From contig NC_063013.1 of NCBI RefSeq assembly GCF_020509005.1, positions 2,728,001-2,792,000 of the forward strand: 64,000 nucleotides of DNA. The letters run 5' to 3'. Both the position numbers and the translations under genes were made by a program. Source of the stretch: Fulvia fulva. Taxonomy: Eukaryota; Ascomycota; Dothideomycetes; Mycosphaerellales; Mycosphaerellaceae. Positions 12,234 through 53,019 of the stretch are shown here, in pieces. Position 1 is the stretch's first letter, and the number at the start of each line of letters is the position of its first letter. The notes beneath the pieces are model-generated. The model was given only the letters and a program-made list of their open reading frames with translations. It had not been told where the DNA came from and searched no databases.

Positions 12234-12268
12234 AGGGATTGTAGGAGACCATGTGGCCTGAGTGGGAG
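12234..12268 (+). promoter_or_regulatory. Copia copy 1 3' leader and weak polypurine tract
   Basis: 35 bp between the gag-pol stop and the 3' LTR. The bases next to the LTR, AGTGGGAG (12261-12268), are the only purine-rich run and are the likely plus-strand primer. It is short and interrupted by a T, so the call is positional. Confidence 0.5.
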
Positions 12269-29210: not shown

Positions 29211-29449
29211 CTTATGTCTATATAGATAATAGCTTTATATCCCTAAACTTTCAAATAGTTAATAGTCGGTTTAATACTATTAAAAGCCTTATCTAGTAAA
29301 ACCTTAAACCTATCGTAATCTAGGCTATTTAGTAGTTTGTTCCTTATATAAGTTTAGGCCTCTAGTACTTTAGGCTAAAGTTTAACCGACATTTTAGCCT
29401 CTTTAAGCATTACCCTTATAGAGTCCTCTAAGGTTTATATTAACCTCTT
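29211..29449 (-). mobile_element. RIPed base-layer Copia remnant, piece 3 (integrase region)
   Basis: Homologous to clean Copia copy 2 at about 18330-18590 (integrase catalytic core C-terminal end). The final TATTAACCTCTT (29438-29449) is the left target-site duplication of the chimeric LINE-A that follows. Confidence 0.8.
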
Positions 29450-30527
29450 GGTCGACGACGAGAATCACCTGTACGTGGTGTCGGCTACGAACCTCTCGTC
29501 TAGCTACGAGAGAGCCAAGTATTCTCACGCTGGAGCGTCGTGGGCGCGACGGGCGCGTAGCGTAGGCGAAGCCGCGGCGAACAGAGGACTACCAGCAAAA
29601 CGGGTATGAAAACCATCCGACGAGCGTGTACTCGTGTCGGGAGCGAGTCCCTCTTCTTTCTACGTGTAAGAAGGGCGCGGAACCGTGGCCTATACGCTCG
29701 ACAGGACACCTCTGGTATGAGTGCAGAATTTTCACCTCCGGAGACCGCAAACCGAGCGGGCTAAGCGACGAACATTGGACGAGCGGACTACAGAACAACA
29801 ACTGAGCGGACTATGCAACGGCGTCGAGCGGACTACGAAACAATCTGGTGTTTGCCAGCGGGCAATGCGGTGGGTAGGTGGACACGCGACGAAGCCTATA
29901 AGGGCCTGTTGAACACCCGGTATGGGAACGAGGGTTTTGCCTGAGGCACTGCCTGTCCCGCTACACAACGCACCTAGTCTGACATAGTAGATTGCGACGA
30001 GGAAAAGACGATAGCCTAAGCAAGGAAAAGACGGCTGTTAGGACGGGGAAAAGACGTACAATGCAAGTGGATTAGTTCTGTGATCGGGGAGGATCGAGGG
30101 CAGGGTGATAAGGAACTTCATATTGGTTAGTAGGTGGAAACGCAAGGAGTACGCTGCCCGGCGTGGTGTGTGCCCCGAGCAAACCTGCGAGGCATGGACG
30201 GCCGCTTTCTAGAGATAGGCTGCGGTAACGCGAAGGGCGTCAAAACCTGGGGCGTGGTGTACACTGGCAGCGACGGCTGACACTGTCTGTACAGCCCGAG
30301 AGGACGGATGCGCATGTCGGTCAATAGAGAGCACTAAAGGGCTTAGGCCTATGGAGGTGGATATTGGCTTAAGGAGCAAACAGGGAGGGAGGGCGTAGAG
30401 GGAAGCTTTTGCTCCGGGCTAACCTCTCGAAACGAGGCTACACGGTGGTGCTAGATGAGTGGGAAAGCGCGGTTAAGACTTGTCACCTTATCTCGTAGCT
30501 AGCTTGCTAAATACGATTCCTTCCTTG
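29450..30527 (+). repeat. 1078-bp 5' module (WEIRD-like), clean copy, chimera 1
   Basis: CpG-rich, non-LINE sequence present at the 5' end of four elements in this window, always the same length (1078 bp) and with the same ends. It contains a hairpin CTCTCGT/ACGAGAG (29493-29512), four copies of GAGCGGRCTA (29754, 29781, 29804, 29826) and three of GGAAAAGACG (30001, 30024, 30047). Only short unsupported open frames. It may supply a promoter or be a reverse-transcribed cellular or non-coding RNA. Resemblance to the Magnaporthe WEIRD module is by architecture and length, not sequence comparison. Confidence 0.9.
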
Positions 30528-33500
30528 CCTTGCAATCCAGGAGCCATGGATTAACCCGCACCATAAGAGACCAACGACCTGCAAGTCACCAGGCTACACG
30601 ACATGCCTACGAGGCGACGGCAGACCCCGCACGTGCTTCTATGTCAGCAAGGACATACTAGAATCCGACTGGGAGGTAGTGTACTACGCAGACGAAGAAG
30701 GCGGGGGCGATATTACCTCCCTCCACGTGGGTAGCACCTGGATACACAACCTATACATGCAACCGCCAGCCTCGAGGTCTAGCCGCGACCTAGGGGTCTG
30801 CAGACACCTAGACAGTGCGCTCAAGAGACAAGGGTGCCACATCGTAGTAGGAGACTTCAACATACACCACCCTTCCTGGGAAAGCCTTATGCAGCCGCAC
30901 CCTATAGCCGACGAAGTACTCGACTTGATGGCGAGCAACGCAATTGCCCTCAATACCCCGAAGGACCTGGGCACCTGGAAGAGAGGGGGACTCCAAGGCA
31001 CGATCGACCTCTCCTGGATCTCAGATAGCCACTACCACACGGTAACCTACTGTGGGATCGAACATGAACTCGAGGCGTCGTCAGACCACATGCCAGTCAG
31101 GACCTCTATTGCGACACAGATACAACGCACACCAGCGAGAACCCCTAAGCCAAACTGGGGAAAGGCCCACTGGGCCAACATCCAGGCGTACCTCGATGAC
31201 TCCAAGAGGCTAGTCCAGATCGCGCAGCAGCAATACAACAGTAAAGACGAGATAGACGAAGCAGTCCAGGGGTTGACAGACGAAATAAGAAAAGCGACCT
31301 CACTTCACGTTCCGCTTGCCCAACCAACGACATGGTCCAAACCATACTGGACGCCGGAGTGCACTGCGGTAGTAAGAGAAGCAAGGAGAGCCCGCCGGGT
31401 GTGGACGAGCAGCCATAGCGAGGAGGCCTGGAACGTATACAGGGAGGCATGCCAACAGAAGAAAGCCATAATACGGAGGGAGAAAGCAGTCGGCTGGAGG
31501 GCCACAGTGGAAGAAATCGCCGGCAAGCCAGAGAGGATGTGGAAGCTAGCGAAATGGGCCCGACAGGACCCTACACAGGGCCCGTCCTTCTCTATCCCAG
31601 CGCTACAATCGCCTAGTGGCCCGGTTAGCGACCCCGAGGCCAAGGCGCGTCTACTGGCTAGCAAGTTCTTCCCACCCCCAGTCGAGGCTGATCTAAGCGA
31701 CATAAACAGCTCTACTCCCCTAGCCCCTAGCATCGCGGTCCAACAGGAGGTGTCCGAGGGAGAAGTTACCGCTGTGCTGAGGAAGTTGCCGGCGAAGAAA
31801 GCCCCGGGGCCGGATGGGATCCCAAACGAGCTACTAAAGAAGTGTAGAGATCAACTAGCCCCAGCAGTTGCAGCGATCTTCAACGCCTGCCTACAGACCG
31901 GATACCACCCGATAGCTTTTAAACAATCGACGACAGTGGTCCTACGCAAGCCGCAGAAGGAAGACTATACGCAGGTGAAGTCGTACCGCCCAATTGCGCT
32001 CCTTAACACTCTTGGGAAGGCGCTTGAGAAGCTGGTTGCAACGAGACTCTCCGAGGCGGCAGAGGAACACTCCCTACTCCCGGACACCCAGATGGGTGCG
32101 CGCCCACAGCGATCGACGCTATCCGCGATGGAACTTATCACCTCTCAGGTAAAGGCCATCTGGTATAAGAATAGGGACAAGGTGGCTTCCTTACTTAGCC
32201 TAGACATATCGGGAGCCTTCGACTACGTGTCACACCCGCGGCTTCTCTACATCCTAAGGTCGAAAGGACTCCCTGAGTGGCTTGTCAACTTCGTACGGTC
32301 CTACCTCCAAAACCGCAGTACGTCGATCCTGGTCGGCCAGTACAGAAGCCCATTTCAAGCAGTCCACACTGGAATCCCGCAAGGCTCAACGCTAGCACCT
32401 ATTCTGTTCCTCTTCTTTATGGCGACGCTGCTCCCAGCCCTAGAATCCCAGAACACCGCTGCGAGCGGCTTCGTAGACGACACAAACATCCTAGCGTGGT
32501 CTTCCTCGACTGAGGAGAACTGTAGGCTACTAGAAGAGAAGCACAAGATCTGCGAGGACTGGGCTAGGAGGCACGGGGCTCGGTTTGCCCCAGAAAAGTA
32601 CAATCTGATACACTTTACGCGCCGGCCACGGTTCCACAATATGCAAGCTTCTATCCAGATACAGGGGCACACGACTAACCCGGCAAATCAGCTCAGGATC
32701 CTCGGACTATGGGTGGACCCGGCGCTACGGTGGAGGAAGCACGTACAGGCAATATTACGGAAAGCTGAACAGAATATGGCATCATGCCAGAGGCTCACTG
32801 CGTCCACATGGGGGGCGGACTTCCGGCAGTCACGACTTCTATATACGGCTATTGTACGGCCAGTCCTTACCTATGGCAGCCAAGTGTGGTCCTTAGGCGA
32901 GAGGGCCTGCCCATCGAAGGGACTCGTCGCGCCGCTAGCGAAGATCCAAAACCAATGCCTAAGGAAGGTCACCGGGGCATATAAGTCGACACCAACGAGG
33001 ATGCTTGAGCACGAGACCGCTATACCGCCGATCGACCTATACATCCAGGGACTACGGACCTCCTACTTAGGCAAGTCGGCACAGTACCCAGTACAGAAGG
33101 TCATCGCCAGTGCAGTCGCAAGGGCCCGCGAATCAGTACCAGCGCACAAGGGCATTCGACCCGGAAACGAGCCGAACTACCGGGCAAGGGACGAACAGCT
33201 AGCAACACAATGGGAAGGTGAGAAATCGTTTGTAGAGCAACTATGGAAAGAGAGGTGGAACAACCAGGTTGTAGGGCATAGTGGACGCCCTCAGCCAGCG
33301 GGACAACCTAAGGAATGGTCAGCTACAAAATCCGCGGTCAAGCACCCCCCGAAGCTCATCCACTACCGCCTTACGAGGGCACAGAGTAGCATAGCAACCC
33401 AACTGCGAAGCGAACACATCGGCCTCCAGGGGTACCTATCATGGAGGAAGGTTCCAGGATACACGAATACTAGCTGCCCCTGCGGCTATCGCTCCCAGAA

Positions 33501-33732
33501 CGTACGGCACGCACTCCTCGTCTGTCCGAGGTGGTCGCTAGGAAGGGGGGAGTGGATGGCAAAGGCGAGGAACCGGACGATTGGGGCACTTCTTAACAAC
33601 GCTGAAGACCTACGGCGCATTACGAACTGGATACTAGAGAAGGGCTGGCTAGAACAGTACCGCCTAGTAGGAGCAGTGCAGGAAGAGAGGACACGACGCA
33701 GCGCGACGAGACCGGCTAGGAGCGGGGGCTAA
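30511..33732 (+). CDS. LINE-A ORF2, 5'-truncated: partial endonuclease + reverse transcriptase + C-terminal zinc motif
   Basis: The open frame starts after a TAA at 30508 (still in the module) and runs to 33732 without a stop. It enters LINE sequence at LAIQEPWI (about 30529), so the first endonuclease strand with its catalytic Asn is missing. The first in-frame ATG is only at 30757; a GTG lies at 30679. Remaining endonuclease motifs: QEPW, GDFNIHH, SSDH. RT motifs (numbered from codon 30679): D509 in DISGAFD, D600/D601 in FVDD. C-terminal C933-x-C935-x8-H944-x4-C949. No RNase H block is visible between RT and the zinc motif. Tad1-like clade by motif style. Probably not translated as a functional ORF2; the RT may be mechanistically intact. 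Confidence 0.9.
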   Translation: MRFLPCLAIQEPWINPHHKRPTTCKSPGYTTCLRGDGRPRTCFYVSKDILESDWEVVYYADEEGGGDITSLHVGSTWIHNLYMQPPASRSSRDLGVCRHLDSALKRQGCHIVVGDFNIHHPSWESLMQPHPIADEVLDLMASNAIALNTPKDLGTWKRGGLQGTIDLSWISDSHYHTVTYCGIEHELEASSDHMPVRTSIATQIQRTPARTPKPNWGKAHWANIQAYLDDSKRLVQIAQQQYNSKDEIDEAVQGLTDEIRKATSLHVPLAQPTTWSKPYWTPECTAVVREARRARRVWTSSHSEEAWNVYREACQQKKAIIRREKAVGWRATVEEIAGKPERMWKLAKWARQDPTQGPSFSIPALQSPSGPVSDPEAKARLLASKFFPPPVEADLSDINSSTPLAPSIAVQQEVSEGEVTAVLRKLPAKKAPGPDGIPNELLKKCRDQLAPAVAAIFNACLQTGYHPIAFKQSTTVVLRKPQKEDYTQVKSYRPIALLNTLGKALEKLVATRLSEAAEEHSLLPDTQMGARPQRSTLSAMELITSQVKAIWYKNRDKVASLLSLDISGAFDYVSHPRLLYILRSKGLPEWLVNFVRSYLQNRSTSILVGQYRSPFQAVHTGIPQGSTLAPILFLFFMATLLPALESQNTAASGFVDDTNILAWSSSTEENCRLLEEKHKICEDWARRHGARFAPEKYNLIHFTRRPRFHNMQASIQIQGHTTNPANQLRILGLWVDPALRWRKHVQAILRKAEQNMASCQRLTASTWGADFRQSRLLYTAIVRPVLTYGSQVWSLGERACPSKGLVAPLAKIQNQCLRKVTGAYKSTPTRMLEHETAIPPIDLYIQGLRTSYLGKSAQYPVQKVIASAVARARESVPAHKGIRPGNEPNYRARDEQLATQWEGEKSFVEQLWKERWNNQVVGHSGRPQPAGQPKEWSATKSAVKHPPKLIHYRLTRAQSSIATQLRSEHIGLQGYLSWRKVPGYTNTSCPCGYRSQNVRHALLVCPRWSLGRGEWMAKARNRTIGALLNNAEDLRRITNWILEKGWLEQYRLVGAVQEERTRRSATRPARSGG

Positions 33733-33906
33733 CGGGGTAGTGACATGGACTACGTACGTTCAGAGGGAAAGCTAATCTAGACAAGGAGTAGTCGGGGGCG
33801 GGAAGGGTTTTCACCTATTCGGGTTTCCCTTTGTACATAACAATAGATATATACCTGCATAGGCCGGATAGGGTCCTAGAACAGGGGAATGACAAATCTA
33901 TCTATC
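33733..33906 (+). other. LINE-A 3' UTR with conserved stem-loop and (ATCT)n tail
   Basis: Contains the stem-loop at 33803-33831: outer AAGGG/CCCTT, internal loop TTTTC/TT, inner ACC/GGT. Then come a GGCCGGATAGGGTCC spacer, TGACAA and an (ATCT)n tail in place of poly(A). The same layout recurs in LINE-B and LINE-C. Likely the RT recognition region for target-primed reverse transcription (inference from UnaL2/SART1-type LINEs). Confidence 0.7.
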
Positions 33907-34215
33907 TATTAACCTCTTAACTAGTCCATTCTATAGAGAGATATATACCTTAGTAAGCTCGAGCCTAATCCCTAAATCCTTCTTCTACTACTTTACTAAT
34001 ATAATAAGTTCTTTTATATTATTAAGCCTTACTACTTTTAGCTACGCTAATAATTGCCTCTCTGCTTTGATCGTCTAGTTCTAGAGAGTAACTAGAGCAT
34101 CTTCTCTTTTCCTAAGAGGAAAGGTCTACTTCTTCCTAGAGAAGCTATTAATAATCTTAAGCTAGTATCTAAATCCTAGTCTTGAGATTAGTAGTAGGCT
34201 ATATATATTAATAGA
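33907..34215 (-). mobile_element. RIPed base-layer Copia remnant, piece 4 (integrase)
   Basis: Begins with the right copy of TATTAACCTCTT. Matches clean Copia copy 2 at about 18585-18885 (integrase core). It ends in TATATATTAATAGA-type sequence, repeated at about 47451-47466 as the duplication of the LINE-B insertion. Confidence 0.8.
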
Positions 34216-35900
34216 CAAAGCAACTGTCCGTACCGGATGCCTATCTAGATATATAGCTCTAAAGCTAGCCTGTTTCGAGGTTCTAGTCACCCTGTTTCTA
34301 TAGCTTAGCTACGGCCCTAAGCCCGCTTCTAGACTAGCCGAAACTTAGCTAGAATATCACCTAACTTAGATTATAAGCTATACTAGCAATTCACTACAAA
34401 CCTACTATATACCCTTAACGTATATAGCTCGCGTAATATATAGAACACTTATAAGACCTTACGCTATAACCTAAACGGCCGCCCGCTAGTCCTCTTAAAA
34501 AGGAGAAGGCGAACTAGAGCTATAGACTCTAGACTAGAAGCCTAGCTAGCGAGTATTAAGCAACTTGTAAGGGAAACCTACGCCTACTAAAAACAGATAC
34601 AAAGTATACTACTACTAAGCTAGTAACAGTATAGCTAGTAATAATAGCTAAACTAGTAATAGCTATAGTAACCGCGACTATAAATATAGAGTAAGCCACC
34701 CCTCCGGGTTAACTAAACCTCTATATAGAAGGACCTATATAAAGAGGCTTAAGAGATACTCGAAGTAGATAAGCGCCTAGCTAGGGTATAAAAGACTACG
34801 ATCGCCTAACTCCTCGGAGCCCTTAAGGTACTTAAATATTAGATCCCGAGAGTAATCTAGTAGATAGTATAGAAAGCTACTACCTAGTATACTCCTATAT
34901 AGGCAAACGTAGTAGCTAACTCCCCTAATCTATAGACCTAAAGGACAAATAACGCTATTAGGGTATACGTTACGGACCCGGAGTAGAGGGTCTAATAAGT
35001 AAGGAGCTAGTAGATAGGATTGGCTAGAAGGAGATAGTAGGAGCTAAAATCGCGCCTAGAGGAGTAATACGCCTCTTTATAGTATAGGAGACAGACCGAC
35101 AAAAGCTCGAGACCCTTAAGGACTAGATAGTTAAGGTAGCGAGGTCGATAAAGGTCTCTTACTAGTAGTTTACGGTAATAGCCTATAGGGTACTAAGGGC
35201 CTTTAGGGTAGAGAACGACCTCGCCCTACTCTAGATATAGAACTAGAACACCTTACCGGGAGTACGCTTTACTAAAGTAGCGTAGCTAAACAAGAATGTC
35301 GAAGCTACTAAGACGTACTCCTCTCTAATCGTCTAGATAGCTACCATAGAATAAGCGAACTAGGTCCTAGAAGGAGGACTATTCTAGTAATACGAACGCC
35401 TCGATACGGAGGTATATAAGAGTAGCTATAGAGTGCTCTAATGCTTTAACAACTAATAATACGGCTTTATTACGCTAAAGTATACCGAGAAGACCCCTAA
35501 GTACCTATACTACGTAGGACCGTATTAGGGGAAATAATACCTACGGGAGGAATCGAGGTACGTATACTACGGCCGTAAACACCCGGTATACTCAAACTTA
35601 TGCCCTATAAGGATGGTAGTATAAGAAAAGGCCCGCTAGGCTAGGGTAATAACCCCGGTAAGGTACCCTATACTAACGCTCGGCAATTCCTAGTATAGAG
35701 GATTCGAGGCCGTAAAGAGGAAAAGGATAGACGAAGCGATATAAAATATATAGTAGAGTACTTACCCGCCGCCTAGAAGCCTAAGGGGGCTATAGAGGGC
35801 GGTAAATAAAGCTAGATAGATATAAATCTTCGGATACCCCCTAATAACCGAACGCTAACCAACCTAATAGGATAGCGCGATAAATAAAGGAGCTATATAG
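34216..35900 (+). mobile_element. RIPed LINE-B copy (plus), 5' segment: 5' UTR and ORF1
   Basis: First part of a LINE-B copy continuing at 38900-42480 and 47387-47450. ORF1 covers roughly 34550-35870; the zinc knuckle is recognisable near 35435-35460 as TGC TTT AAC AAC TAA, the RIPed form of CFNCQQYG. Its 5' UTR differs from the minus LINE-B copy, so it may be a subfamily. AAAGGAGCTATATAG (35886-35900) is the left duplication of the nested chimera. Confidence 0.82.
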
Positions 35901-38899
35901 ATAGATAGATATTTCATTAAGCTGTTATAGTGCCCTTTGGCCTATATAGCTATACTATCTTGTTTTCGTATATATAGAGGGGAAACCGTATTAGTAAAAA
36001 CCCCTCCTCCTTCCCGCCTATCTTTTCCTCCTAGTTGTCGTCTTAAATTTCCCTTATTAGGGGTACGCTAGTGTTATAGGCCTGCCCTAATGACTACCCT
36101 ATCTATAACCCCCTCGCTTCCGCCTCTTGTCTATCTACTCCTCCGTCTCGCTAGCGAGGCTAAACTACTAGAGGTATCCCTACTATAGTATCTACCGAGA
36201 GATTCGGCGAATGTTACCTTTGTCCCTTATAATTAACTTGTAGTCTCTCCTCCCCGCTTAGTGCCTCTCATTTCCCCTACCTCTCGCCTACTACGGGTAT
36301 CGTAGTAGTATATGTTCTAGGTTTAACGATAGGTAGCTATACTAGTAGGCTAGGCTATAGATGTCTAGTACGCGTCTCCTAAATAGGTAGGCCCTTAATC
36401 TAATATTTTCGGACCTGATTTGGATCGCTATACTTGCTTCGGCCCTTATTAGGTCCCTATATAGCTAGTAATTGTGTCTCTAGAAGGCTCGGAGCGCTAT
36501 CGGGCCTATTGTCTTAGGGGGCTTCCTTTTCTAGTCCTAATCCTATAGGTAGCTCGCTATCTATTCCGCTAGGCTTAAGGTCTTAGCCTTGCTCCCGCCG
36601 GCCTAGCGAGTCCTACGCTCCTCCTCTTTTCGTGCTAGCTATTCGGTGCTTATCTATACGGCCGTAAAGGTAGTAAGGTCATCCTCTTTTTAGCTTGTCC
36701 TATGTCCGGCCCCTCTCCGGTAGCGGCTTTCTATCTTATTCTTTACCTCCTAGATCGTAGTTTATACTAGGTAACCTGTCGTCTTTACCGCGTATTAAAT
36801 TCTTATTCCCCGGATATACTGGCCGATTAGTAGTATTCCTATCTCTATTTCTACCGTGCTTATTAACGTTGTCTTATATATACCTAGTACCCTATATAGG
36901 TTACCTACCTATATCCTATTTAGGGATTGCTCTATCCGTTTCGGGATCGGCTTACCTACGCCTCCTATTCCCTAAATCTATGCCCCGTATAATATAGCTA
37001 GTCTAATAATCGCCTTATATATTACCCTTAACCTATCGAATATTACTCCCTATATAGACGTCGTAAGCCTCTTTATCGAGGCTTTATTAACTTACGCTCG
37101 ACTCTAGGCTTTCTTAATCTATACATTCTAGCTTAGCTTCGGGTCGAGCTAGATCCCTAGTACTCGTAGCTCCGCTAATAGCTTGGTCTCGTAGCCTTAG
37201 ATTCTTACCGCCGCCTTTATATTATAGTATATTCTCGCTTTACTAAAGTGTATAAGTTAGTACTTTTTAGGGGCGAACCGGGCACTATACTTCTTTGCCT
37301 ACTCCTCGCATTTCTTGTGCCTATCTTTAAGGAGGCGACAGTTCTCTTCTATCGAGTCTGACTAGGCTAGTATGTTTATATCGTCTACGAACCCCGATAC
37401 TAAGGTTTACGGAGAGGTGAGTAGGGGGATTAGATTAGACATAAATATTAGAAACAGGATAGGGGAGAGAGTAGATCCCTAAGGTATTCTAGCCTCTACC
37501 TTTACCGGGTCGGACGTGTACCTTCCTAGGACTAGGTATGTCGTCCGTTCCTAGAGAAAGGAGTAGACGAACGTCGTTACCTACTAGGGGATGCCTTTCT
37601 ACTATAGGATATATATTAGCCTTTAGTATAAGACGTTGTTAAAGGCTCCTACGATGTCGAGGGATAATAAGGACGCCGCTCGGTTCCTACCGTAGTACTA
37701 GAGGGTCTAAATTTGCTCCGTAATAAGCTCTATTACTATTAGTATCGATCGCTAGCTTCTTTCCCCTATCTATATTACTAGGAGTACGTAGTTGTCCTCG
37801 GCTAGCTACGTAAGTCTCTAGTAAGGAAGGAATCGTATTTAGTAAGCTAGCTACGAGATAAGGTAATAAGTCCTAACCGCGCTTTCCTACTTATCTAGTA
37901 CTACCGTATAGCCTCGTTTCGAGAGGTTAGCCCGGAGCAAAAGCTTCCCTCTACGCCCTCCCTCCCTATTTGCTCCTTAAGCTAATATCCACCTCTATAG
38001 GCCTAAGCCCTTTAGTACTCTCTATTGACCGATATACGTATCTATCCTCTCGGGCTATATAGATAGTATTAACCGTCGCTACTAGTATATACTACGCCCT
38101 AGGTTTTAACGCCCTTCGCGTTACCGTAGCCTATCTCTAGAAAGCGGCCGTCTATACCTCGTAGGTTTGCTCGGGGTATACACTACGCCGGGTAGCGTAC
38201 TCCTTACGTTTCTACCTATTAACTAATATAAAGTTCCTTATTACCCTACTCTCGATCCTCCCCGATTATAGAACTATTCTACTCGTATTATACGTCTTTT
38301 CCCCGTCCTAATAGCCGTCTTTTCCTTACTTAGGCTATCGTCTTTTCCTCGTCGTAATCTACTATATTAGACTAGGTGCGTTATGTAGCGGGATAGGTAG
38401 TGCCTTAAGTAAAACCCTCGTTCCTATACCGGGTATTAAATAGGCCCTTATAGGCTTCGTCGCGTGTCTACCTACCTACCGTATCACCCGCTAGTAAACA
38501 CTAGATTGTTTCGTAGTCCGCTCGATACCGTCGTATAGTCCGCTTAGTTGTTATTCGATAGTCCGCTCGTCTAATGTTCGTCGCTTAGCCCGCTCGGTTT
38601 ACGGTCTCCGGAGGTGAAAATTCTCTACCTATACTAGAGGTGTTCTATCGAGCGTATAGGCTACGGTTCCGCGCTATTCTTATACGTAGAAAGAAGAGGG
38701 ACTCGCTCCCGACACGAGTATACGCTCGTCGGATAGTTTTTATACCCGTTCTACTAGTGCTTCTCTATTCGCCGCGGCTTCGCCTACGTTACGCGCCCGT
38801 CGCGCCTACGACGCTCTAGCGTAAGAATACTTAGCTCTCTCGTAGTAAGACGAGAGGTTCGTAGCCGATACTACGTATAGGTAATTCTCGTCGTCGACT
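35901..38899 (-). mobile_element. RIPed chimeric LINE-B (chimera 3): LINE-B 3' part + 1078-bp module
   Basis: Perfect 15-bp duplication AAAGGAGCTATATAG (35886-35900 / 38900-38914). LINE part 35901-37821 starts inside the RT region (equivalent to about 51103 in chimera 4). Module 37822-38899 is exactly 1078 bp. Fully RIPed, so it is an old insertion, yet both junctions are still exact. This shows that the module also fuses to LINE-B. Confidence 0.92.
37822..38899 (-). repeat. 1078-bp 5' module, chimera 3 (RIPed)
   Basis: Same length and ends as the clean module after allowing C-to-T/G-to-A (ends in CCTTCCTTA on the minus strand, RIPed from CCTTCCTTG). Both direct-repeat arrays are recognisable in RIPed form (AGTCCGCTCG near 38515-38560, CGTCTTTTCC near 38300-38345). 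Confidence 0.9.
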
Positions 38900-41800: not shown

Positions 41801-42480
41801 AAGGTACGGAGGAAAAAGGGTAATAAGGTAAAGACGTAAAGCCTCGTAGAGTAGGTAGCGGGCTGCCTTTAGGAATAGGAATAGAAAGAGAATCCCCTAC
41901 CGAATCGAGGACCCCTAGCCTTACGCCCCTTCTAGAGACATAACTACCTACTCTACCGTAACCTAATAAGGGCCGAAGTAAGCATCGCGATATAGATTAG
42001 GTCTAAATATATCGGGCTAAGGGCCTACCTATATAGAAGGAAAGTCCCGGACGTATATAGCCTTATATACTAGTATAACTATTCGTTATAGAACCCGGAG
42101 TATATAATACTACGGTGCTCGTAATAGGTAGAATAACGAGGCGAGTAGAGAGCTAAGGTAGTAAGACGCGACTACTAGTTAATCGTAACGGATAAGCGAG
42201 ACGTAAGACGGCTAGTATAGTAGATACTATAGCAGGGCTTTCTTAAACAGTTCGCGCTAGCTAGCGAGACGGAGGAGTAGATAGAGAAGAGGCGGGAGGT
42301 CAAGGGGATATAGATAGGGTAGTTATTAGGGTAGGCCTATAATATTAGTATACCCTTTATAAGGAAAACACGAAAGAAGGCAAGTTTAAGAACGTATAGG
42401 AGAGGAGAGGGGTTTTTACTTTATAAGACGAGTTTCCCCTTTATAACTAGAAGTAGGTAGTATAGCTATATAGGCTAATA
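38900..42480 (+). mobile_element. RIPed LINE-B copy (plus), middle segment: ORF2
   Basis: ORF2 of LINE-B with endonuclease GDFNL at about 39400 and RT motifs (APGPDGI equivalent near 40340, FIDD near 41020). The C-terminal region lies near 42000-42110 and the 3'-UTR stem-loop near 42400-42435. All frames are interrupted. CTATATAGGCTAATA (42466-42480) is the left duplication of LINE-C. Confidence 0.85.
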
Positions 42481-42549
42481 CAAGAACTGTACCACTTCTA
42501 TAGGTATAGCTATATAACCACTATTATAGCGTAGACAGAGAGGGACACG

Positions 42550-43809
42550 ATGATAGCGATCGCAGGAAACGACCAGGAGCAGGAGAGTAACGAGTGGAAG
42601 GAGGTCTGCAGGAAGGCAGAAACAATGGCAATGGCAGGAGATGGCGAGCACCTAGAAAGAGCACTTAAGGGGATGATTTTGGAGCTCCTTGGAGGGCTAA
42701 AGGCACTAAGGAGCCAAACAGGACAGATCATTAACAGGACAGTAGCAGCAGCAGCAAAGAAGAGGACACAGGAAGGCCAGAAACTAAGCCAACCAACCTG
42801 GGCAGCAGTTGCATCCCAAAACCCTCCCCCCCAGAAAACAGCTATCAAGGTCTACATTTCCGACCAGCAAGAGCAGAAAGAGATTGAGGGCCTGTCAGGC
42901 AAGGAGATCATACAGAAGATTGGGATACAAGGCATCATTGGAGCCAGGAAAGAGAAGGGAGGTGTCCTTAAGCTGTTCACAGCACAGGAGCAAGACAGGA
43001 AGAGGCTAGAGACACAGAAGGAGTGGACAGTCAAACTAGGCAAGACGGCTAAGGTCTCACACCAACAAAATATGGTTATTGCCCATGGGATGACCACAAA
43101 GTTTGACATTGAAGGAGACCTTAAGAGGCTGCAGGACCAGAACCAGGCTGTATGCCCAGGGCTACAGATCACAAAAGCAGCATGGGTCAACAGAAAGACA
43201 AAGGACACAAAGAGAGAGTCTTCTCTAGTGCTCTGGATAGGCACTGTAGAACAGGCAAACACCGTGCTTGACAAGGGCATCTTCTGGGAATGCGAAAGAA
43301 TGGACACAGAAATCCATAGAAGCACCCACAGACTACTGCAATGCTTCAAGTGCCAACAGTATGGTCATATCTCTACTAGATGCCCAAGCCAAAAGGACAC
43401 TTGTTCCCACTGTGCTGGTAGCCACAAAGTACAGAATTGCACAGCCCCAAAGAGTGAAGCCAGATGTGCATGCTGTGGAAAGAAACACCCTTCCTGGTCC
43501 CAAGACTGCACAGCTAGGATTGAGGCAAAGAGGAGGGCAAGAGAAGCCAGGATCAACACCCCTATCAGATTCCAGACAGGGACAATCACCCAAGAACCCC
43601 TAAGGACTGTCTACAACCCTCTAAAAAGAGGCAGAACAGAAGAGACCACACAGGTCCAAGGCCACCCTGCCATAGGTAGACCAAAATCAATTGTGGTTGC
43701 AGGAAGAGACCCGTCACAAAGCAGGCTCAACCTTACCACAATCCCAAATAGCAGCCAGCAGCAGGAAGCACGAGAAGACCAGCAGGAGACCAGCATGGAT
43801 GAGTCATGA
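42550..43809 (+). CDS. LINE-C ORF1: gag-like RNA-binding protein (419 aa)
   Basis: Nucleic-acid-binding ORF1p of a Tad1-like LINE, which would coat element RNA in the RNP. The N-terminal part is charged/helical. A PTWAAVAS motif around 80-90 is typical of fungal LINE gags. Three CCHC zinc knuckles: C265-C268-H273-C278, C285-C288-H292-C297, C306-C309-H313-C320. The C-terminus is Gln/Arg-rich and low in order. The start is the first ATG of the element. The stop TGA overlaps the ORF2 ATG in ATGA (43806-43809), pointing to termination-reinitiation. Uninterrupted, so apparently functional. Confidence 0.93.
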   Translation: MIAIAGNDQEQESNEWKEVCRKAETMAMAGDGEHLERALKGMILELLGGLKALRSQTGQIINRTVAAAAKKRTQEGQKLSQPTWAAVASQNPPPQKTAIKVYISDQQEQKEIEGLSGKEIIQKIGIQGIIGARKEKGGVLKLFTAQEQDRKRLETQKEWTVKLGKTAKVSHQQNMVIAHGMTTKFDIEGDLKRLQDQNQAVCPGLQITKAAWVNRKTKDTKRESSLVLWIGTVEQANTVLDKGIFWECERMDTEIHRSTHRLLQCFKCQQYGHISTRCPSQKDTCSHCAGSHKVQNCTAPKSEARCACCGKKHPSWSQDCTARIEAKRRAREARINTPIRFQTGTITQEPLRTVYNPLKRGRTEETTQVQGHPAIGRPKSIVVAGRDPSQSRLNLTTIPNSSQQQEAREDQQETSMDES

Positions 43810-46800
43810 TTGAGACACCCAATCTTACCACTATCCAGTACAATGTCAACAAAAGCCAGCACAAGGTCCAGAGAAGCTTTCTCCAAGCACTGGACTCAAA
43901 GAAACACCTAGTCATTGCAGTCCAGGAACCTTGGATCAACAGCAAATCTAACAGACCATCTACTGCTAACGACACAAGGTATCACACACTCCTAGCCAAA
44001 CAAGGCACCCCTAGAACATGCATGTACATCAGCAAAGAGATGGCAACAGACAGCTGGGAACAAATCCAACAGGAAGGGGGAGACATCACCTCAGTCAGAC
44101 TCAACACCAACCAAGGCAGCATCCACATCCACAGTGTATACAACCCACCCCCTAGCTCCAGAAGCAGCACCCAGCTGGGCACACTACAACAGCTGCCAGA
44201 AATCTTGCAGAGTGACTCCCAACACATCGTGCTGGGAGACTTCAACTTGCACCATCCTACATGGGGATCAGACTTTGCACCTGCCCATCACTTCCTAGCT
44301 AACAGACTCCTCTCCACTACCCAAAGCAACAACATGCACCTAGTTACCCCAAAGGGCCTAACTACCTGGTCACAGAGAGCAAGCTCAAGCACCATTGACC
44401 TGTGCTTTGCATCACATGACCTGCAGCAGAAGGTCACCAGATGCTGGGTTAACCAGGACTTGGAGTCCTCATCAGATCACCTCCCAATTCAGGTGGAGTT
44501 TGAAACACAGACACAGCAGGAAGGAGACCTAGAACCTCAGCTGGCCTGGAAGGCAGCCAACTGGGAACAGATCAGACAAGACCTGGAACAGAAGCTAGCT
44601 GGACTAGAGACCAGGAGACTGGAAACAGCCTTAGACATAGACCAAGCAGTGGCAGAACTGGTTAGAACAATGCAGGAAACTGCGGCAGCCCACACCAGAG
44701 AAAAGAAACAGTCACTGTACCAGAAGCCATTCTGGACAAAGGAATGCTCAGAGAAGGTCAAGGCAGCCAGGCAGGCCAGGAGAGCCCTTACCCAGAGCCA
44801 CTCCCAGGAAGCATGGGACAGATACAACCAGGCAACCAGAGACAAGAAGGCCCAGATCAAGAGGGACAAGATGCCGGAGTGGAGGTCAACAGTTGGATCC
44901 ATTACCCAGAATCCTGAGAAGATGTGGAAACCAGCAAAGTGGGCAAGACAACCCACACAGGACAGAAACATGCTGCCCCAGTTTCCAAACATTGAAGACC
45001 AGGAAGGAGTAATCCAACACACTCTCCCAGGAAAGGCACAGGCATTGGGGAAACATTTCTTTGGCACACAGGTAGAAGCTGACCTGCAGGATCTGGAGGG
45101 CAGTGTGTATCCAACACCACTAGAGCAATCCTGCACAGTGGGAGAGGGAGAGATCAAGAGCATCATTAAGACACTCTCAGGAAACAAGGCCCCAGGACCA
45201 GATGGGATTCCAAACTTGTTCATCAAGACATGCAAGGACCAGATCTCCCCTGCACTGTCAAACATCTTTTCACAGTGCATGGCCCAAGGACACTGCCCTA
45301 AACACTTCAAGGAGTCACTGACTGTGGTCTTGAGAAACCCACAGAAAGAGGACTACACAAAGCTAAAGGCATACAGACCTATTGCCTTGCTCAACACACT
45401 AGGCAAACTCCTGGAAAAGATCATAGCAGAAAGGCTGACAAACCTAGCTGAAGAACATAGAATCCTTCCTGAAGAATAGATGGGAGGCAGGAAACAAAGA
45501 TCAACACTAACAGCTGTGGAACTTATCACAGAGCAGATCAAGACCCTGTGGAACTTTGGGAACAACAAAGCAGCCACACTCCTCTCACTGGACATATTAG
45601 GAGCCTTTGACAATGTCTCACACCAGAGGCTGATCCACATCCTGAAACAGAAGGCTATCCCCAACTGGACAGTCCAGTTCATCCAGTCCTTCCTCAGAGG
45701 CAGAACCACAAGACTAAGACTGGGCAGATACAAATCTGACAGCATGCCTACAGAGACAGGAATCCCACAGGGATCAACAATGTCTCTAATCCTGTTTCTC
45801 CTCTTTATAGCAGACCTGCCAGCAAAGCTAAACTCTAGAAACACATCAGCCTCAGGGTTTGTGGATGACACAAACATCCTAGCCTGGTCAGACAGCACAG
45901 AAGAGAACTGTAGAATCTTGTAGAAGAAACACAAGGAATTTGAGGAATGGGCCAGGAAACATGGAGCCAGATTTGCCCCAGAGAAGTATCAACTCGTCCA
46001 CTTCAGTAGAGCCAGAAACAGACACAATATGCAAGCCCCAATCACTATTCAGGGACACACAACAGAACCCTCAAGTGAATTAAGGGTGCTAGGAATATGG
46101 CTGGATCCAAAGCTCAGCTGGGGACCACAGGTCAAGAGAGCACAGGCAAGAGCAGACAACAACAGGCAATCAATTGACAGGCTTACAGCCTCCACATGGG
46201 GAGCCACATTTGCGAAAGCAAAGGTTATGTACAAGGCCATTGTGAAGCCAGCCATGCTATATGGAGCCCAGATCTGGTCAGCCCAAGACAAGATCCCAAA
46301 GAGAATTGCAGATCCCATCAGCAGAGCCCAAGCCTCCTGTCTGAAAAAGGTGCTTGGAGCATACAAGTCAACTCCAACAAGGGTGGTCGAAATGGAGTCT
46401 GGCTCCCCACCAGCCAAGCTCTACCTTCAAGGGTTGAGATACCAGTATGCAGGAAAGACGTCTGCATACCCAGCCCAGCTAGTAATCCAGAAGGCAGTCA
46501 ACAAAATCAGGAGCCAGTGCACAAGAAGGCACAGACAAGCAAGACCCAATCCAGCCCCACAGAAGCAGCAGGACCTGCAGAAGTTCAAAGAACTAACAGA
46601 ACAGCTGCACCTAGCCCAGCAGGAACAGGACAGAAGGGCTCAAGGGAGAGGATCAGCAGCCAGCCAAGGGAAGAAGCAACAGTCTCTAGCTGAAAGGATG
46701 GCAGGACTCCTCTGGAAGACTGAATGGACAAGAACCCCACAGAGGCCAGGAACCCCAAAGGCACTCCAACAGTTTGGTAGCCACAACTACCTACTGTACT

Positions 46801-47192
46801 CAGACCTGACCAGGTCAGAAGCAAGCATAGCAATACAAATCCGCTCTGAACACATCGGAGTCAGGGCATACCTGCATCAGAGAAAAGTCCTAGGTATCGA
46901 AGACAAGAGTTGCCCATGCGGCTACCTGTCCCAGAATGTCGAACATAGACTTCTGGTTTGCAAAGAATGGAGTACAGGGAGAGGTGAATGGAGGGCAAGG
47001 GCAAGGAACAGAAACTTCCAAGCCATGATCAGCAATAAGGGAGACCTCCAGAGAATTACAAGGTGGATCATCCACCAAGGATTTTTGGAGCAGTTCTCTC
47101 TTACTAGGGAAACAGAGAGATGGATTGAGGAGAGAAAGAAGGAGGAGGAGAGCAGGAAGAGGGGGACAACTCTAGGGTTGCAGACAAGGTAG
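43806..47192 (+). pseudogene. LINE-C ORF2: endonuclease-reverse transcriptase with two premature stops
   Basis: One frame of 1129 codons. AP-like endonuclease: N13 (QYN), E41 (QEPW), D145/N147 (GDFN), D224/H225 (SDH). RT: APGPDGI, YRPIALLN, FVDD with D687/D688. C-terminal CPCGY...H...C starting at C1036. No RNase H block seen. TAG at 45477 (codon 558) stands where LINE-A has Gln in the motif before MG.R..RST; TAG at 45921 (codon 706) follows NCRIL. Both fit CAG-to-TAG at CpA. Two further changes look RIP-like against the family consensus: Leu in DILGAFD (45597-45599) and Leu in STMSLILF (45786-45788). As it stands it encodes only a 557-residue endonuclease-to-early-RT product. Confidence 0.92.
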
Positions 47193-47386
47193 TCAGAGGC
47201 TAACCACCATGACACTAGTGCACCCTAATGGAAGGAAAACTGAGAACTCATGGCAAGGAAGCTATTAGAGAAGGAGAGGAGGTTTTTACCTAGGAACAGG
47301 TTTCCTACCTTATGTAGCAACATATATAGACATAAACCCGCATGGGCCGGAGGGCACTACAACGGGTAAATGAATCATCTATCTAT
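47193..47386 (+). other. LINE-C 3' UTR with stem-loop and (ATCT)n tail
   Basis: Stem-loop at 47280-47306: outer AGG/CCT, internal loop TTTTT/TT, inner ACCT/AGGT. It is followed by a GGGCCGGAGGG spacer, a TGAATC box and (ATCT)n. Architecture matches LINE-A and LINE-B although the primary sequence differs. Confidence 0.7.
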
Positions 47387-47450
47387 CTATATAGGCTAAT
47401 AGACTCTATAATAGCACAATAAACAATATATATCTATATATATCTATTTA
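47387..47450 (+). mobile_element. RIPed LINE-B copy (plus), 3' terminus
   Basis: The last ~60 bp of the LINE-B copy begun at 34216, separated by LINE-C. CACAATAAACAATATAT resembles the LINE-B end at 520-547. Then comes the AT-rich duplication shared with about 34200-34215. Confidence 0.7.
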
Positions 47451-48840: not shown

Positions 48841-49444
48841 CCTAAGGAATGGTCAGCTACAAAATCCGCGGTCAAGCACCCCCCGAAGCTCATCTACTAC
48901 CGCCTTACGAGGGCACAGAGTAGCATAGCAACCCAACTACGAAGCGAACACATCGGCCTCTAGAGGTACCTATTATGGAGGAAGGTTCTAGGATATACGA
49001 ATACTAGCTGCCCCTACGGCTATCGCTCCTAGAACGTACGGCACGCACTCCTCGTCTGTCCGAGGTAGTCGCTAGGAAGGGGGGAGTAGATGGCAAAGGC
49101 GAGGAACCGGACGATTAGGGCACTTCTTAACAACGCTAAGGACCTACGGCGCATTACGAACTAGATACTAGAGAAGGGCTGGCTAGAACAGTACCGCCTA
49201 GTAGGAACAGTGTAGGAAGAGAGGATACGACGTAGCGCGACGAGACCGGCTAGGAGCGGGGGCTAACGGGGTAGTGACATGGACTACGTACGTTCAGAGG
49301 GAAAGCTAAACTAGACAAGGAGTAGTCGGGGGCGGGAAGGGTTTTCACCTATTCGGGTTTCCCTTTGTACATAATAATAGATATATACCTGTATAGGCCG
49401 GATAGGGTCCTAGAACAGGGGAATGACAAATCTATCTATCTATC
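48841..49444 (+). mobile_element. 5'-truncated LINE-A fragment, lightly RIPed (604 bp)
   Basis: Homologous to 33306-33906 of the clean LINE-A: ORF2 C-terminus, 3' UTR, stem-loop and tail. Flanked by TATATATAGGTTA (48828-48840 / 49445-49457). Many CpA are retained, some converted, so it is intermediate in RIP between the clean and the saturated LINE-A copies. Ordinary 5' truncation without module. Confidence 0.9.
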
Positions 49445-49711
49445 TATATATAGGTTAGTAGCACCTAGCTATACTTGTTCTAGAGATATACCTACTTCTT
49501 AGTAGCTCTTCTAGATTTATATAAGCCCTTAAGCTCAAATTCATCTTCTGCTATAATCCTACTAAGGATACTAAAGTTATATACTACATTTTGTCTTATC
49601 TATATTAGCGTATTAAGAATCTCCTTAATTTTAGTCTCTTCTTAGGGTTTTAGAGTCTTACCCTTAATATTATTAAAAGACACTTCTATTAGGTTATGAA
49701 TTATAAAGTAT
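49445..49711 (-). mobile_element. RIPed base-layer Copia remnant, piece 6 (gag)
   Basis: Matches the gag region of clean Copia copy 2 (about 20180-20400). AATTATAAAGTAT (49699-49711) is the left target-site duplication of chimera 4. The right copy at 53020-53032 reads AATTACAAAGTAT, a single C/T difference at a CpA. Confidence 0.75.
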
Positions 49712-50789
49712 AGTCGACGATAAGAATTACCTATACGTAGTGTCGGCTACGAACCTCTCGTCTTACTACGAGAGAGCTAAGTATTCTTACGCTAGAGCGT
49801 CGTAGGCCCGACGGGCGCGTAACGTAGGCGAAGCCGCGGCGAATAGAGGACTACTAGCAAAACGGGTATAAAAACTATCCGACGAGCGTATACTCGTGTC
49901 GGGAGCGAGTCCCTCCTCTTTCTACGTATAAGAAGGGCGCGGAACCGTGGCCTATACGCTCGATAAGATACCTCTAGTATAAGTATAGAATTTTCACCTC
50001 CGGAGACCGTAAACTAAGCGGGCTAAGCGACGAACATTAGACGAGCGGACTATAGAACAATAACTAAGCGGACTATACGACGGCGTCGAGCGGACTACGA
50101 AGCAATCTAGTGTTTACTAGCGGGCAATACGGTAGGTAGGTAGACACGCGACGAAGCCTATAAGGGCCTATTTAACACCCGGTATAGGAACGAGGGTTTT
50201 ACCTAAGACACTACCTATCCCGCTATATAACGTACCTAGTCTAATATAGTAGATTACGACGAGGAAAAGACGATAGCCTAAGTAAGGAAAAGACGGCTAT
50301 TAGGACGGGGAAAAGACATATAATACAAGTAGATTAGTTCTATAATCGGGGAGGATCGAGGGTAGGGTAATAAGGAACTTTATATTAGTTAGTAGGTAGA
50401 AACGTAAGGAGTACGCTACCCGGCGTAGTGTATGCCCCGAGTAAACCTACGAGGTATAGACGGCCGCTTTCTAGAGATAGGCTACGGTAATGCGAAGGGC
50501 GTCAAAACCTAGGGCGTAGTATATACTAGTAGCGACGGCTAATACTATCTATATAGCCCGAGAGGACGGATACGTATGTCGGTTAATAGAGAGCACTAAA
50601 GGGCTTAGGCCTATAGAGGTGGATATTAGCTTAAGGAGCAAATAGGGAGGGAGGGCGTAGAGGGAAGCTTTTGCTCCGGGCTAACCTCTCGAAACGAGGC
50701 TATACGGTAGTACTAGATAAGTAGGAAAGCGCGGTTAAGACTTATTACCTTATCTTATAGCTAGCTTACTAAATACAATTCCTTCCTTG
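49712..50789 (+). repeat. 1078-bp 5' module, chimera 4 (RIPed)
   Basis: Same length and ends as the other three modules; the first base is A where the clean copy has G, a TpG-to-TpA change. The hairpin at the start and both repeat arrays are legible in RIPed form (AGCGGACTA near 50065-50095; GGAAAAGACG near 50262-50315). Confidence 0.9.
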
Positions 50790-53019
50790 CCCTAGACATA
50801 GATTAGGCGGTTAGCTCTAATATAGTAATAGGAGTTATAAGTAAGCTAAAAGGACGAAAAGCCCTAGGCCTAGACAGGATACTAAATATACTACTAAAAG
50901 AGTATAGAAAAGAGATCGCGCCGAGCCTTACAAACCTATTTACCGCGTACCTACGGCTAGGGTATCACCCGAAGCCGTATAGAGAGTCTATAATAGTAGT
51001 GCTACGTAAGCTATAGAAGGAGGACTATACTTAGCCCAAATCGTATAGACCAATCGTACTTCTAAACACGATAGGGAAGGTCCTAGAAAAGATAGTAGCC
51101 TAGAGACTTACGTAGCTAGCCGAGGACAACTACGTTCTCCTAGTAATATAGATAGAGGAAAGAAGCTAGCGATCGATACTAATAGTAATAGAGCTAATTA
51201 CGGAGCAAATTTAGACCCTCTAGTACTACGGTAGGAACCGAGCGGCGTCCTTATTATCCCTCGACATCGTAGGAGCCTTCGATAACGTCTTATACTAAAG
51301 GCTAATATATATCCTATAGTAGAAAGGCATCTCCTAGTAGGTAACGAAGTTCGTCTACTCCTTTCTCTAGGAACGGACGACATACCTAGTCCTAGGAAGG
51401 TACACGTCCGACCCGGTAAAGGTAGAGGCTAGAATACCTTAGGGATCTACTCTCTCCCCTATCCTGTTTCTAATATTTATGTCTAATCTAATCCCCCTAC
51501 CTACCTCTCCGTAAACCTTAGTATTAGGATTCGTAGACGACATAAACATTCTAGCCTAGTTAGACTCGATAGAGGAGAACTGTCGCCTCCTTAAAGATAG
51601 GCATAAGAAATACGAGGAGTAGGTAAAGAAGTATAGTACCCGATTCGCCCCTAAATAGTACTAACTTATATACTTTAGTAAAGCGAGAATATACTATAAT
51701 ATAAAGGCGGCGGTAAGAATCTAAGGCTACGAGACTAAGCTATTAGCGGAGCTACGAGTACTAGGGATCTAGCTCGACCCGAAGCTAAGCTAGAACGTAT
51801 AGATTAAGAAAGCCTAGAGTCGAGCGTAAGTTAACGAAGCCTCGATAAAGAGGCTTACGGCGTCTATATAGGGAGTAATATTCGATAGGTTAAGGGTAAT
51901 ATATAAGGCGATCGTTAGACTAGCTATATTATACGGGGCATAGATTTAGGGAATAGGAGGCGTAGGTAAGCCGATCCCGAAACGGATAGAGTAGCCCCTA
52001 AATAGGATATAGGTAGGTAACCTACGTAGGATACTAGGGGAATATAAGACAACGTTATTAAGTACGGTAGAAATAGAGACGGGAACACTACTAATCGGCT
52101 AATATATCCGGGGAATAAGAATTTAATACGCGGTAAAGACGACAGATTACCTAGTACAAACTACGATCTAGGAGGTAAAGAATAAGATAGAAAGCCGCTA
52201 CCGGAGAGGGGCCGGATATAGGACAAGCTAAAAAGGGGATGACCTTACTACCTTTACGGCCGTATAGACAAGTACCGAATAGCTAGTACGAAAAGAGGAG
52301 GAGCGTAGGACTCGCTAGGCCGGCGGGAGTAAGGCTAAGACCTAAAGTCTAGCGGAATAGATAGCGAGCTACCTATAGGATTAGGACTAGAAAAGGAAGC
52401 CCCCTAAGATAATAGGCCCGATAGTACTCCGAGCCTTCTAGAGACACAATTACTAGCTATATAGGGATCTAATAAGGGCCGAAGCAAGCATAGCGATCCA
52501 AATCAGGTCCGAATACATTAGATTAAGGGCCTACCTATTTAGGAGACGCGTACTAAACATCTATAGCCTAGCCTACTAGTGTAGCTACCTATCGTAAAAC
52601 CTAGAATATATACTACTACGATACCCGTAGTAGGCGAGAGGTAGGGGAAATTGGAGGCACTAAGCGGGAAGGAGAGACTACAAGTTAATCATTAGGGACA
52701 AAGGTAACATTCGCCGAATCTCTCGGTAGATACTATAGTAGGGATACCTCTAGTAGCTTAGCCTTACTAGCGAGACAGAGGAGTAGATAGATAAGAGGCG
52801 GAAGCTAGGAGGGTTATAGATAGGGTAGTTATTAGAGCAGGCCTATAACACTAGCGTACCCCTAATAAAGGTATTTTAAGACGATAACTAGGGGGAAAAG
52901 ACAGGCGGGAAGGAGGAGGGGTTTTTACTAATACGGTTTCCCCTCTATATATATAAAAACAAGATAGTATAGCTATATAGGCCAAAGGGCACTATAACAG
53001 CTTAATGAAATATCTATCT
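49712..53019 (+). mobile_element. RIPed chimeric LINE-B (chimera 4): 1078-bp module + LINE-B RT to 3' end
   Basis: Module 49712-50789, then LINE-B from just before the RT domain (50790) through the RT FVDD region (about 51535), C-terminus and 3' UTR (stem-loop about 52916-52945, outer GAGGGG/CCCCTC) to an (ATCT) tail. Its 13-bp duplication has one RIP difference. It uses a different LINE-B breakpoint from chimera 3. No open frame. Confidence 0.92.

Follow-up and report, generated by a model that had tools for sequence, protein, structure and literature searches.

MGL, a long interspersed nuclear element (LINE) of Magnaporthe, is of the Tad type. It forms the 3' part of MINE, in which a module of 1113 nt called WEIRD stands upstream of the LINE, and which is, by architecture, the closest precedent for the composites analyzed here. 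The accessible text of the MINE report describes 33 chimeras (31 MINEs with one LINE, one chimera with a short interspersed nuclear element (SINE) and one tripartite element) and 28 switch sites with the consensus GCC|A/U, and it records no solo WEIRD and no relative in the genomes then available (PMC2104539). For transcripts of MINE, the same report gives GenBank numbers EF585235-EF585237. Transcripts of WEIRD are reported under stress as well (PMC3978060). The present analysis concerns a stretch of 64,000 nucleotides from Fulvia fulva (Cladosporium fulvum), positions 2,728,001 to 2,792,000 of contig NC_063013.1 (the window), which holds four copies of a constant 1078-bp module, each fused to a 5'-truncated LINE. 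The window lies on contig C2 of an assembly of 67,169,167 bp in 14 contigs. For C. fulvum Race 5, the genome is reported to be 67.17 Mb in 14 chromosomes, with 16.3% Tad1 LINEs and repeat-induced point mutation (RIP) over 39.2% of its length (PMC9453070).

An earlier note made from the letters of the window had drawn the parallel with MINE, and the parallel is real. In both systems, a full-length module without coding capacity, some 1.1 kb long (1113 nt in Magnaporthe, 1078 nt in C. fulvum), lies 5' of a 5'-truncated LINE in the same orientation, target-site duplications (TSDs) are short, no solo module has been found, and microhomology is absent (PMC2104539, accessible text). The exact GCC|A/U motif is not the rule in the composites described here, in which a related motif, R-Y|C-Y (R, purine; Y, pyrimidine; the bar marks the junction), occurs instead. 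By our own counts, the 18 rows of the published Table 3, several of which share a site, have a pyrimidine at -1 in 18/18 cases and R-Y-Y at -3 to -1 in 17/18, so that, with a one-base shift of the junction, R-Y-Y covers the two motifs. The two systems differ in scale, with 33 chimeras and mainly one LINE in Magnaporthe against 577 module 3' ends and four or more LINE families in C. fulvum. They differ also in the hepatitis delta virus (HDV)-like ribozyme predicted at the 5' end of the present module, since the accessible part of the MINE report mentions none for WEIRD. One published MINE primer, whose location in WEIRD that text leaves unstated, agrees with the module in at best 13 of 20 positions, which is no match (PMC2104539).

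Other described systems share single features. The U6/L1 and other mammalian chimeras, as summarised in the MINE report, also combine a full-length cellular RNA with a truncated LINE and have a TSD, but their break points are given there as random (PMC2104539), whereas those described here follow RY|CY. In R2 and L1Tc, a double-pseudoknot ribozyme at or near the 5' end is described as freeing the element from a co-transcript (PMC3774820, PMC4035085). Those ribozymes belong to autonomous LINEs, whereas the one predicted here lies in a non-coding module joined to foreign LINEs. SIDEs are non-autonomous derivatives of R2. Like the module they combine a lack of autonomy with a 5' ribozyme, according to the sections available (PMC3414825), but they keep the LINE 3' end needed for target-primed reverse transcription (TPRT), whereas the module has none and gains one by fusion. 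A search that covered few subscription journals found no paper describing such a module in C. fulvum, its fusion to more than one LINE family or a ribozyme within it.

The module and its ends

BLAST of the un-RIPped reference copy, W2 (29450-30527, plus strand), against the window returns four module copies and no others. They are gap-free, 1078 bp long and placed as the earlier note had them: W1 at 4990-6067 (minus strand, 97.0% identical to W2), W2 itself, W3 at 37822-38899 (minus strand, RIP-mutated, 88.9%) and W4 at 49712-50789 (plus strand, RIP-mutated, 90.0%). The first and last nucleotide positions are identical in all four. The note had given the terminal letters as constant too, and these vary by RIP-type changes, nt 1 being A in W3 and W4 and the last G having become A in W3. 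In alignments, old module copies diverge largely by C-to-T and G-to-A changes, the mark of RIP.

A genome search with the module, as proposed in that note, extends these observations. The last 21 bases of the module have 264 exact matches in the assembly and the reversed control pattern has none; their recurrence is not due to chance. With RIP-type changes allowed, the module 3' end has 577 matches (reversed control, 0) and a 20-base tag at the 5' end has 437. Many different module 3' ends, which the note had named as an outcome at odds with a discrete module, were not seen. In a test free of 3' end bias, 74 copies were listed through their 5' ends on contig C1 below about 10 Mb, and the 3' end falls at 1054-1080 nt in 69 of them and at exactly 1078 nt in 60. 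Among 21 candidate un-RIPped 5' ends that lack the exact 3' 21-mer, all ten that were fetched stop at nt 1078, where A has replaced the final G.

The 5' end is almost as constant. Of 41 distinct aligned module copies picked by their 3' ends, 39 reach nt 1 or 2; the exceptions met are the loci L028, L031 and L072, the last of which was read for a different purpose. The module of L031 is interrupted near nt 487. L028 (C1:4549237-4551022) is a head-to-tail module dimer in which the second module starts at nt 371, and a second such dimer, L086 (C9:1539693-1541681), restarts at nt 168. In L072 (C14:1740-3560) the module begins at nt 677, adjoining TATATAT-like, target-like DNA after TATATATCTTTAA; the module 5' end is therefore nearly always complete, not always. 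This composite of module and LINE-B sits on the small contig C14, roughly 3 kb away from its end.

The module is non-coding, with no ATG-started open reading frame (ORF) of more than 62 aa overlapping it. A simple pattern finds no Pol III B box of the kind expected in a SINE, and A-box-like matches at nt 109 and 916. In viral contigs, a search with 19 bases from the module end gave no exact match.

LINE partners and target sites

The earlier note described one module shared by two LINE families, and the number can be extended to four. Of the 97 junctions read, 93 fall in these families (42 in LINE-B, 28 in LINE-A, 14 in LINE-C and 9 in LINE-D). Of the remainder, L097 and L111 lead into a weak relative, 79-80% similar to L011, and L043 and L107 were placed in no family. 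The count omits L002, L039 and L040 (duplicates of W2, L001 and L003), L053-L068 (fetched as LINE-A 3' ends) and L113-L122, although L121 is a further composite. The families were drawn from seeds chosen by the analyst, and the LINE-D members L011 and L015 are only 77.8% identical. LINE-A has endonuclease and reverse transcriptase (RT) domains and LINE-C an endonuclease domain; LINE-B and LINE-D are classed as LINEs through their similarity to A and C, about 65-76% where BLAST aligns them. The relatives of the LINE-A protein are endonuclease-RT proteins, and identity reaches 48% in the 120 that were listed out of 600.

In 95/97 junctions, what comes after the module 3' end is LINE or LINE-like sequence and not, as for a SINE ending with its own 3' end, the target site. 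The 97 junctions comprise 60 distinct break points, with the LINE 5'-truncated and in the orientation of the module. Flanks differ between copies that have a common junction, with the exception of L020 and L022, apparently a segmental duplicate.

Within the window, the LINE starts at four different points, twice in LINE-A and twice in LINE-B, as had been described. W2 continues into a 5'-truncated LINE-A with endonuclease and RT domains at 30528-33906 (plus strand; parent junction CACGT|CCTTGC), and the composite is flanked by a 12-bp TSD (plus strand, 29438-29449 and 33907-33918). W1 is fused to a 5'-truncated LINE-A at 1894-4989 (minus strand) that starts about 290 bp further in than that of W2; no TSD was found for this composite (module 4990-6067). 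W3 is fused to a 5'-truncated LINE-B at 35900-37821 (minus strand; parent junction GTAGC|CTAGAG), with a 15-bp TSD (5' copy at 38900-38914, minus strand, and 3' copy at about 35885-35899). The W3 composite seems to be nested within an opposite-strand LINE-B copy (window 34736-35872 and 38920-42478). W4 is fused to a 5'-truncated LINE-B at 50790-53019 (plus strand), at a recurrent site with 24 RIP-tolerant junction matches genome-wide, and has a 13-bp TSD with one RIP-type mismatch (plus strand, 49699-49711 and 53020-53032).

The earlier claim that three of the four composites have their own TSD thus stands, as does its reading of unit insertion with a fixed module end and a variable LINE end. 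Duplications of 12-15 bp also occur at L001/L039, L003/L040 and L007, TSDs having been scored only where both element ends lie in the fetched sequence (most other loci stop short of the 3' end). At insertions with TSDs, the target often opens with a TATAT- or TATTA-like sequence that continues the (CTAT)n 3' end of the LINE, which suggests that priming on the LINE 3' side involves microhomology.

LINE-A also exists without the module: a long, RIP-mutated copy occupies 53657-58617 (minus strand), with a 14-bp TSD read by eye. A module-free LINE-C with a TSD lies at 42481-47390 (plus strand) and is 97.9-98.5% identical to the LINE part of the four LINE-C composites tested (L010, L012, L016 and L034).

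The junction rule on the LINE side

For 54 of the 60 distinct junctions, the upstream LINE sequence is known from longer copies, taken as parents; the six without a parent were excluded. Position -1 is C or T in 54/54, position -2 is A or G in 49/54, position +1 is C in 46/54 and position +2 is C or T in 51/54. RY|CY fits 41/54 junctions against a background of 3.6% (p = 3e-48), where the background consists of positions in the LINE-A part of W2, applied to all families, and homologous hot spots across LINE families are not fully independent. Because RIP preserves the purine or pyrimidine class, it cannot have produced the R/Y part of the rule. The alignment would mask a G at -1, but even when this is allowed for, by taking P(Y | not G) as 0.62, the probability of 54/54 is about 1e-11. 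Microhomology between the parent and the last base of the module is absent in 54/54, which is true by construction.

Genome-wide, a purine follows the module end in 7/577 cases. L041, L069 and L071 have one common LINE-A site, AT|ATCGAC, L070 is a LINE-A fusion at AC|ATTAGG and L072 a LINE-B fusion at AC|ATCGAC. The dimers break within the module, at AC|GG (L028) and AT|CC (L086). Among the 60 distinct junctions are CTAGACATATC in LINE-A and CCCTGGACATGG in LINE-B.

By eye, LINE-A, LINE-B and LINE-C (the L001, L008 and L016 groups) are fused within three bases of one RT codon, in SLDI(S/A)GAFD. TCCTT or a similar sequence lies a few bases upstream at these three hot spots and resembles the module tail TTCCTTCCTTG; this is left as an oddity.

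Module-free truncations mostly lack the rule. Eight such LINE-A 5' truncations (L066, L115-L119, L122 and window 48840), a small sample with positions and TSDs read by eye, have RY in 2/8 and RY|CY in 1/8, versus 49/54 and 41/54 in the composites (Fisher p = 0.0002 and 0.001). L115, which can be read as TG|CA or as GC|AG, was scored as non-fitting. The sample excludes L054 and L007, which represent internal deletions, as well as L061 (83 bp and RIP-mutated).

Several candidate routes to the junctions were considered and rejected. As to homology-driven strand transfer, the module tail agrees on average in 2.6/12 positions with the parental 12 nt that precede the junctions, compared with 2.3 at background RY sites. 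Splicing onto LINE acceptors would require AG, which is missing before the junctions. Reverse splicing of a group I or group II intron, prompted by the terminal G and the pyrimidine at -1, finds no support in Rfam.

Module haplotypes and recurrent fusion

Across 22 young module copies there are 21 variable sites, which by eye form about three haplotypes. The junction CTCAGCATCGGG carries all three (L005, L023 and L038), and CCCTGGACATGG carries at least three module forms. Of the four junctions with at least two young copies, these two clearly differ in haplotype, and the other two differ by single or private sites only and are hardly informative. All of the haplotypes are found with at least two LINE families (LINE-A, LINE-B and, for one haplotype, LINE-D). 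Haplotypes are shuffled against junctions, and the fusions have therefore been made repeatedly from few module sources. L009 and L030 match in junction as well as in haplotype, possibly because a single composite moved twice.

A predicted HDV-like ribozyme at the module 5' end

HDV-like ribozymes have a nested double-pseudoknot architecture, on which the descriptor used here is based. By this descriptor, the module probably begins with a self-cleaving HDV-like RNA at nt 1-77 (29450-29526, plus strand, in W2). The predicted helices, numbered by hand, are P1 (nt 1-7/31-37, 7 bp with two wobbles), P2 (11-16/72-77, 6 bp), P3 (18-20/28-30, 3 bp, with L3 at 21-27), P1.1 (22-23/38-39, two pairs) and P4 (44-50/57-63, 7 bp). 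The putative catalytic C in J4/2 is C66, within a GCCAA that precedes P2' in the predicted fold; CNAA was itself part of the descriptor. The nested double pseudoknot would start at the very first base of the module, which would explain why the 5' end is fixed.

The descriptor matches 0/20,000 shuffled sequences and 1/100,000 Markov strings. Over the window and the fetched loci (604,760 strand-bases), it matches 57 times at module starts and twice elsewhere; in the window, the matches are W2 and W1 only, with W1 matching from nt 1 (6067) and each of them also one base in. Nucleotides 1-99 are unchanged in all 22 young copies, although this proves little because there are few changes overall. 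No HDV-like ribozyme was found at the 5' ends of the LINEs themselves in three starts searched with a relaxed descriptor, those of LINE-B and LINE-D lying outside the test.

LINE-A copies and the module

How often a LINE carries the module can be judged from LINE-A. On C1 below 8.56 Mb there are 75 LINE-A 3' ends, of which 42 belong to full-length copies without a detected module (none within 7 kb upstream), 8 to composites and 25 to other forms. In the eight composites, the module lies 858-4675 bp from the LINE-A 3' end, short of the 4904 bp of a full copy. Ten of the other ends were fetched: six are truncated, L113, L114 and L120 exceed the fetched 3.4 kb, and L121 is a module composite. Because L121 had escaped the search patterns, the module counts are lower bounds. 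A module is present within 7 kb upstream of 12/100 listed LINE-A 3' ends (opposite strand, 1/100), and the idea that the module is obligatory for LINE integration was rejected on this count.

L042 has a module, then 35 unassigned bases, then the LINE-A 5' tag and region. This composite may be near full length, and could represent a jump at the natural 5' end of the LINE-A RNA. The sequence directly upstream of ACACATTCGAAAGC varies among LINE-A 5' ends (window 58607, window 6535, L039 and L042), with one common version in L039 and window 6535. It may be that full-length LINE-A also has variable or captured 5' ends.

A template-jump model and its alternatives

It is probable that, as a whole, these observations are explained by a discrete RNA of 1,078 nt that is captured as a second template by LINE RTs. 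The 5' end of this non-coding RNA would be freed by the HDV-like ribozyme at nt 1, and its 3' end would be the G of ...CCTTCCTTG. A Tad-type LINE RT would start first-strand cDNA synthesis normally, at the 3' end of the LINE RNA by TPRT, and would stop on that RNA within R-Y|C-Y, most likely where cleavage has ended it. It would then jump end-to-end to the 3' G of the module, most simply through pairing with one non-templated C, and copy the module, usually to the ribozyme-made 5' end (G1), before the composite integrates with a TSD of 12-15 bp. For a silkworm non-LTR RT, template jumping is reported to depend on non-templated addition or on a primer whose 3' overhang has the right length (PMC8857657); one added C that pairs with the final G of the module would suffice. 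Dimers such as L028 and L086 are expected of a double jump.

The earlier note had proposed that the RT stalls on LINE RNA and then switches to the 3' end of a discrete RNA. The template jump is supported, although by inference. Random stalling is not enough, because the LINE switch points follow a strict sequence rule. Since module-free truncations mostly lack that rule, a special donor end, for example a cleaved LINE RNA, is favoured over general RT fatigue. The predicted ribozyme at nt 1, the LINE-side junction rule and the shuffling of haplotypes are additions to that note.

Several observations weigh against the capture model. Most junctions were sampled through the module 3' end, which makes other 3' ends invisible, and only the set picked by 5' ends can reveal them; in that set, the 3' end is absent at the expected place in 5/74 copies. 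On C1, a matching 5' tag is missing for 31/100 RIP-tolerant 3' ends and for 7/62 exact ones (six of the seven were read, and comprise four with RIP changes in the tag, the dimer L028 and the interrupted L031). L072 looks like a plain 5'-truncated module, the sole such case seen, so truncated modules do occur, and L042, with its 35 unplaced bases ahead of the LINE-A 5' region, is also an awkward case. The RY rule has no proven cause, and hairpins near the junction are no stronger than background at six LINE-A sites. The ribozyme is a prediction; its descriptor was written after the fold had been seen, the RIP-mutated W3 and W4 fail it, and at E<=5 no HDV family in Rfam matches the module. The sequences of HDV-like ribozymes are highly variable, however, and the Rfam result lowers the ribozyme claim without removing it. 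Finally, no solo module or source gene was found among the loci read, and the free module RNA is hypothetical for this reason. The best solo candidates were the seven 3' ends followed by a purine, of which six are LINE fusions and the seventh is the dimer L028. A source gene could still sit among the several hundred unread copies.

What kind of RNA would be captured is a separate matter. We would only tentatively regard the module as a selfish "5' hitch-hiker", with a replication strategy that none of the papers found describes. Lacking both a LINE 3' end and a protein, it would free its 5' end with a ribozyme of its own, and would spread solely by presenting its 3' end to the RTs of any Tad LINE that run off cut LINE RNA. 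Four or more LINE families would then be interchangeable carriers, and WEIRD a second example. Possible too, if short of probable, is a passive housekeeping non-coding RNA, caught through its abundance and not selected for spread. WEIRD was interpreted in this way in the accessible text of its report (PMC2104539), and the small ORFs and the missing B box would suit such an RNA, but a predicted ribozyme exactly at the first base is a feature of mobile elements, and the loci read contain about three source haplotypes and no single-copy gene.

The main rival to a jump of the RT is joining at the RNA level, in which the module RNA would be ligated or trans-spliced to a 3' part of the LINE RNA and the product would then undergo ordinary retrotransposition. 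The strict R-Y|C-Y on the LINE side, opposite one fixed base on the module side, does resemble a cleavage or ligation site, and the scarcity of RY at module-free truncations (2/8 vs 49/54) would fit as well. Nevertheless, the AG that marks spliceosomal 3' sites is missing on the LINE side, the module contains no Rfam intron ribozyme, and ligation requires a second enzyme, whereas non-LTR RTs already jump. We consider this route unlikely.

Less likely again is that a few founder composites retrotranspose as units, so that recurrent junctions reflect common ancestry rather than fresh fusion events. Two junctions, one in LINE-A and one in LINE-B, have 24 matches each, and L009 and L030 agree in junction and haplotype, as descent would predict. 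However, CCCTGGACATGG and CTCAGCATCGGG hold clearly different haplotypes, one of them three, and the 60 distinct junctions among 97 would have to be accounted for.

It is very improbable that the module is the 5' untranslated region (UTR) of one LINE family, its variable junctions being internal deletions or template slips, because, although an HDV-like ribozyme is typical of some LINE 5' ends such as those of R2 and L1Tc in the papers cited above and L042 places a module just upstream of a LINE-A 5' tag, 42/75 LINE-A copies are full length without a detected module, the eight composites fall short of a full copy, and four diverged families use the same module with interchangeable haplotypes. 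A parental LINE whose own 5' UTR is the module, the other outcome that the earlier note had set against its proposal, is thus not seen as a rule, with L042 as a possible exception.

Other features of the window

Two copia elements (6965-12501 and 21294-15758) are 99.9% identical, lie in opposite orientation and adjoin LINE-A sequence. The segments 1-3172 and 24465-21294 form an inverted pair with 99.4% identity which, with the copia pair, makes up a large recent inverted structure.

Significance

When MINE was reported in 2007, it was known from one fungus and 31 copies, with a module that the accessible text describes as of unclear origin and function (PMC2104539). The composites of C. fulvum supply a far larger natural data set, with 577 module 3' ends and 60 distinct junctions among the 97 read. 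They also offer a testable cause for the module 5' end, and a sharp switch-point rule, which is not seen in a small sample of truncations that lack the module. Two questions about LINE biology are thereby opened to test: what decides where a LINE RT abandons its template, and whether capture at the 5' side of LINE cDNA can sustain an RNA.

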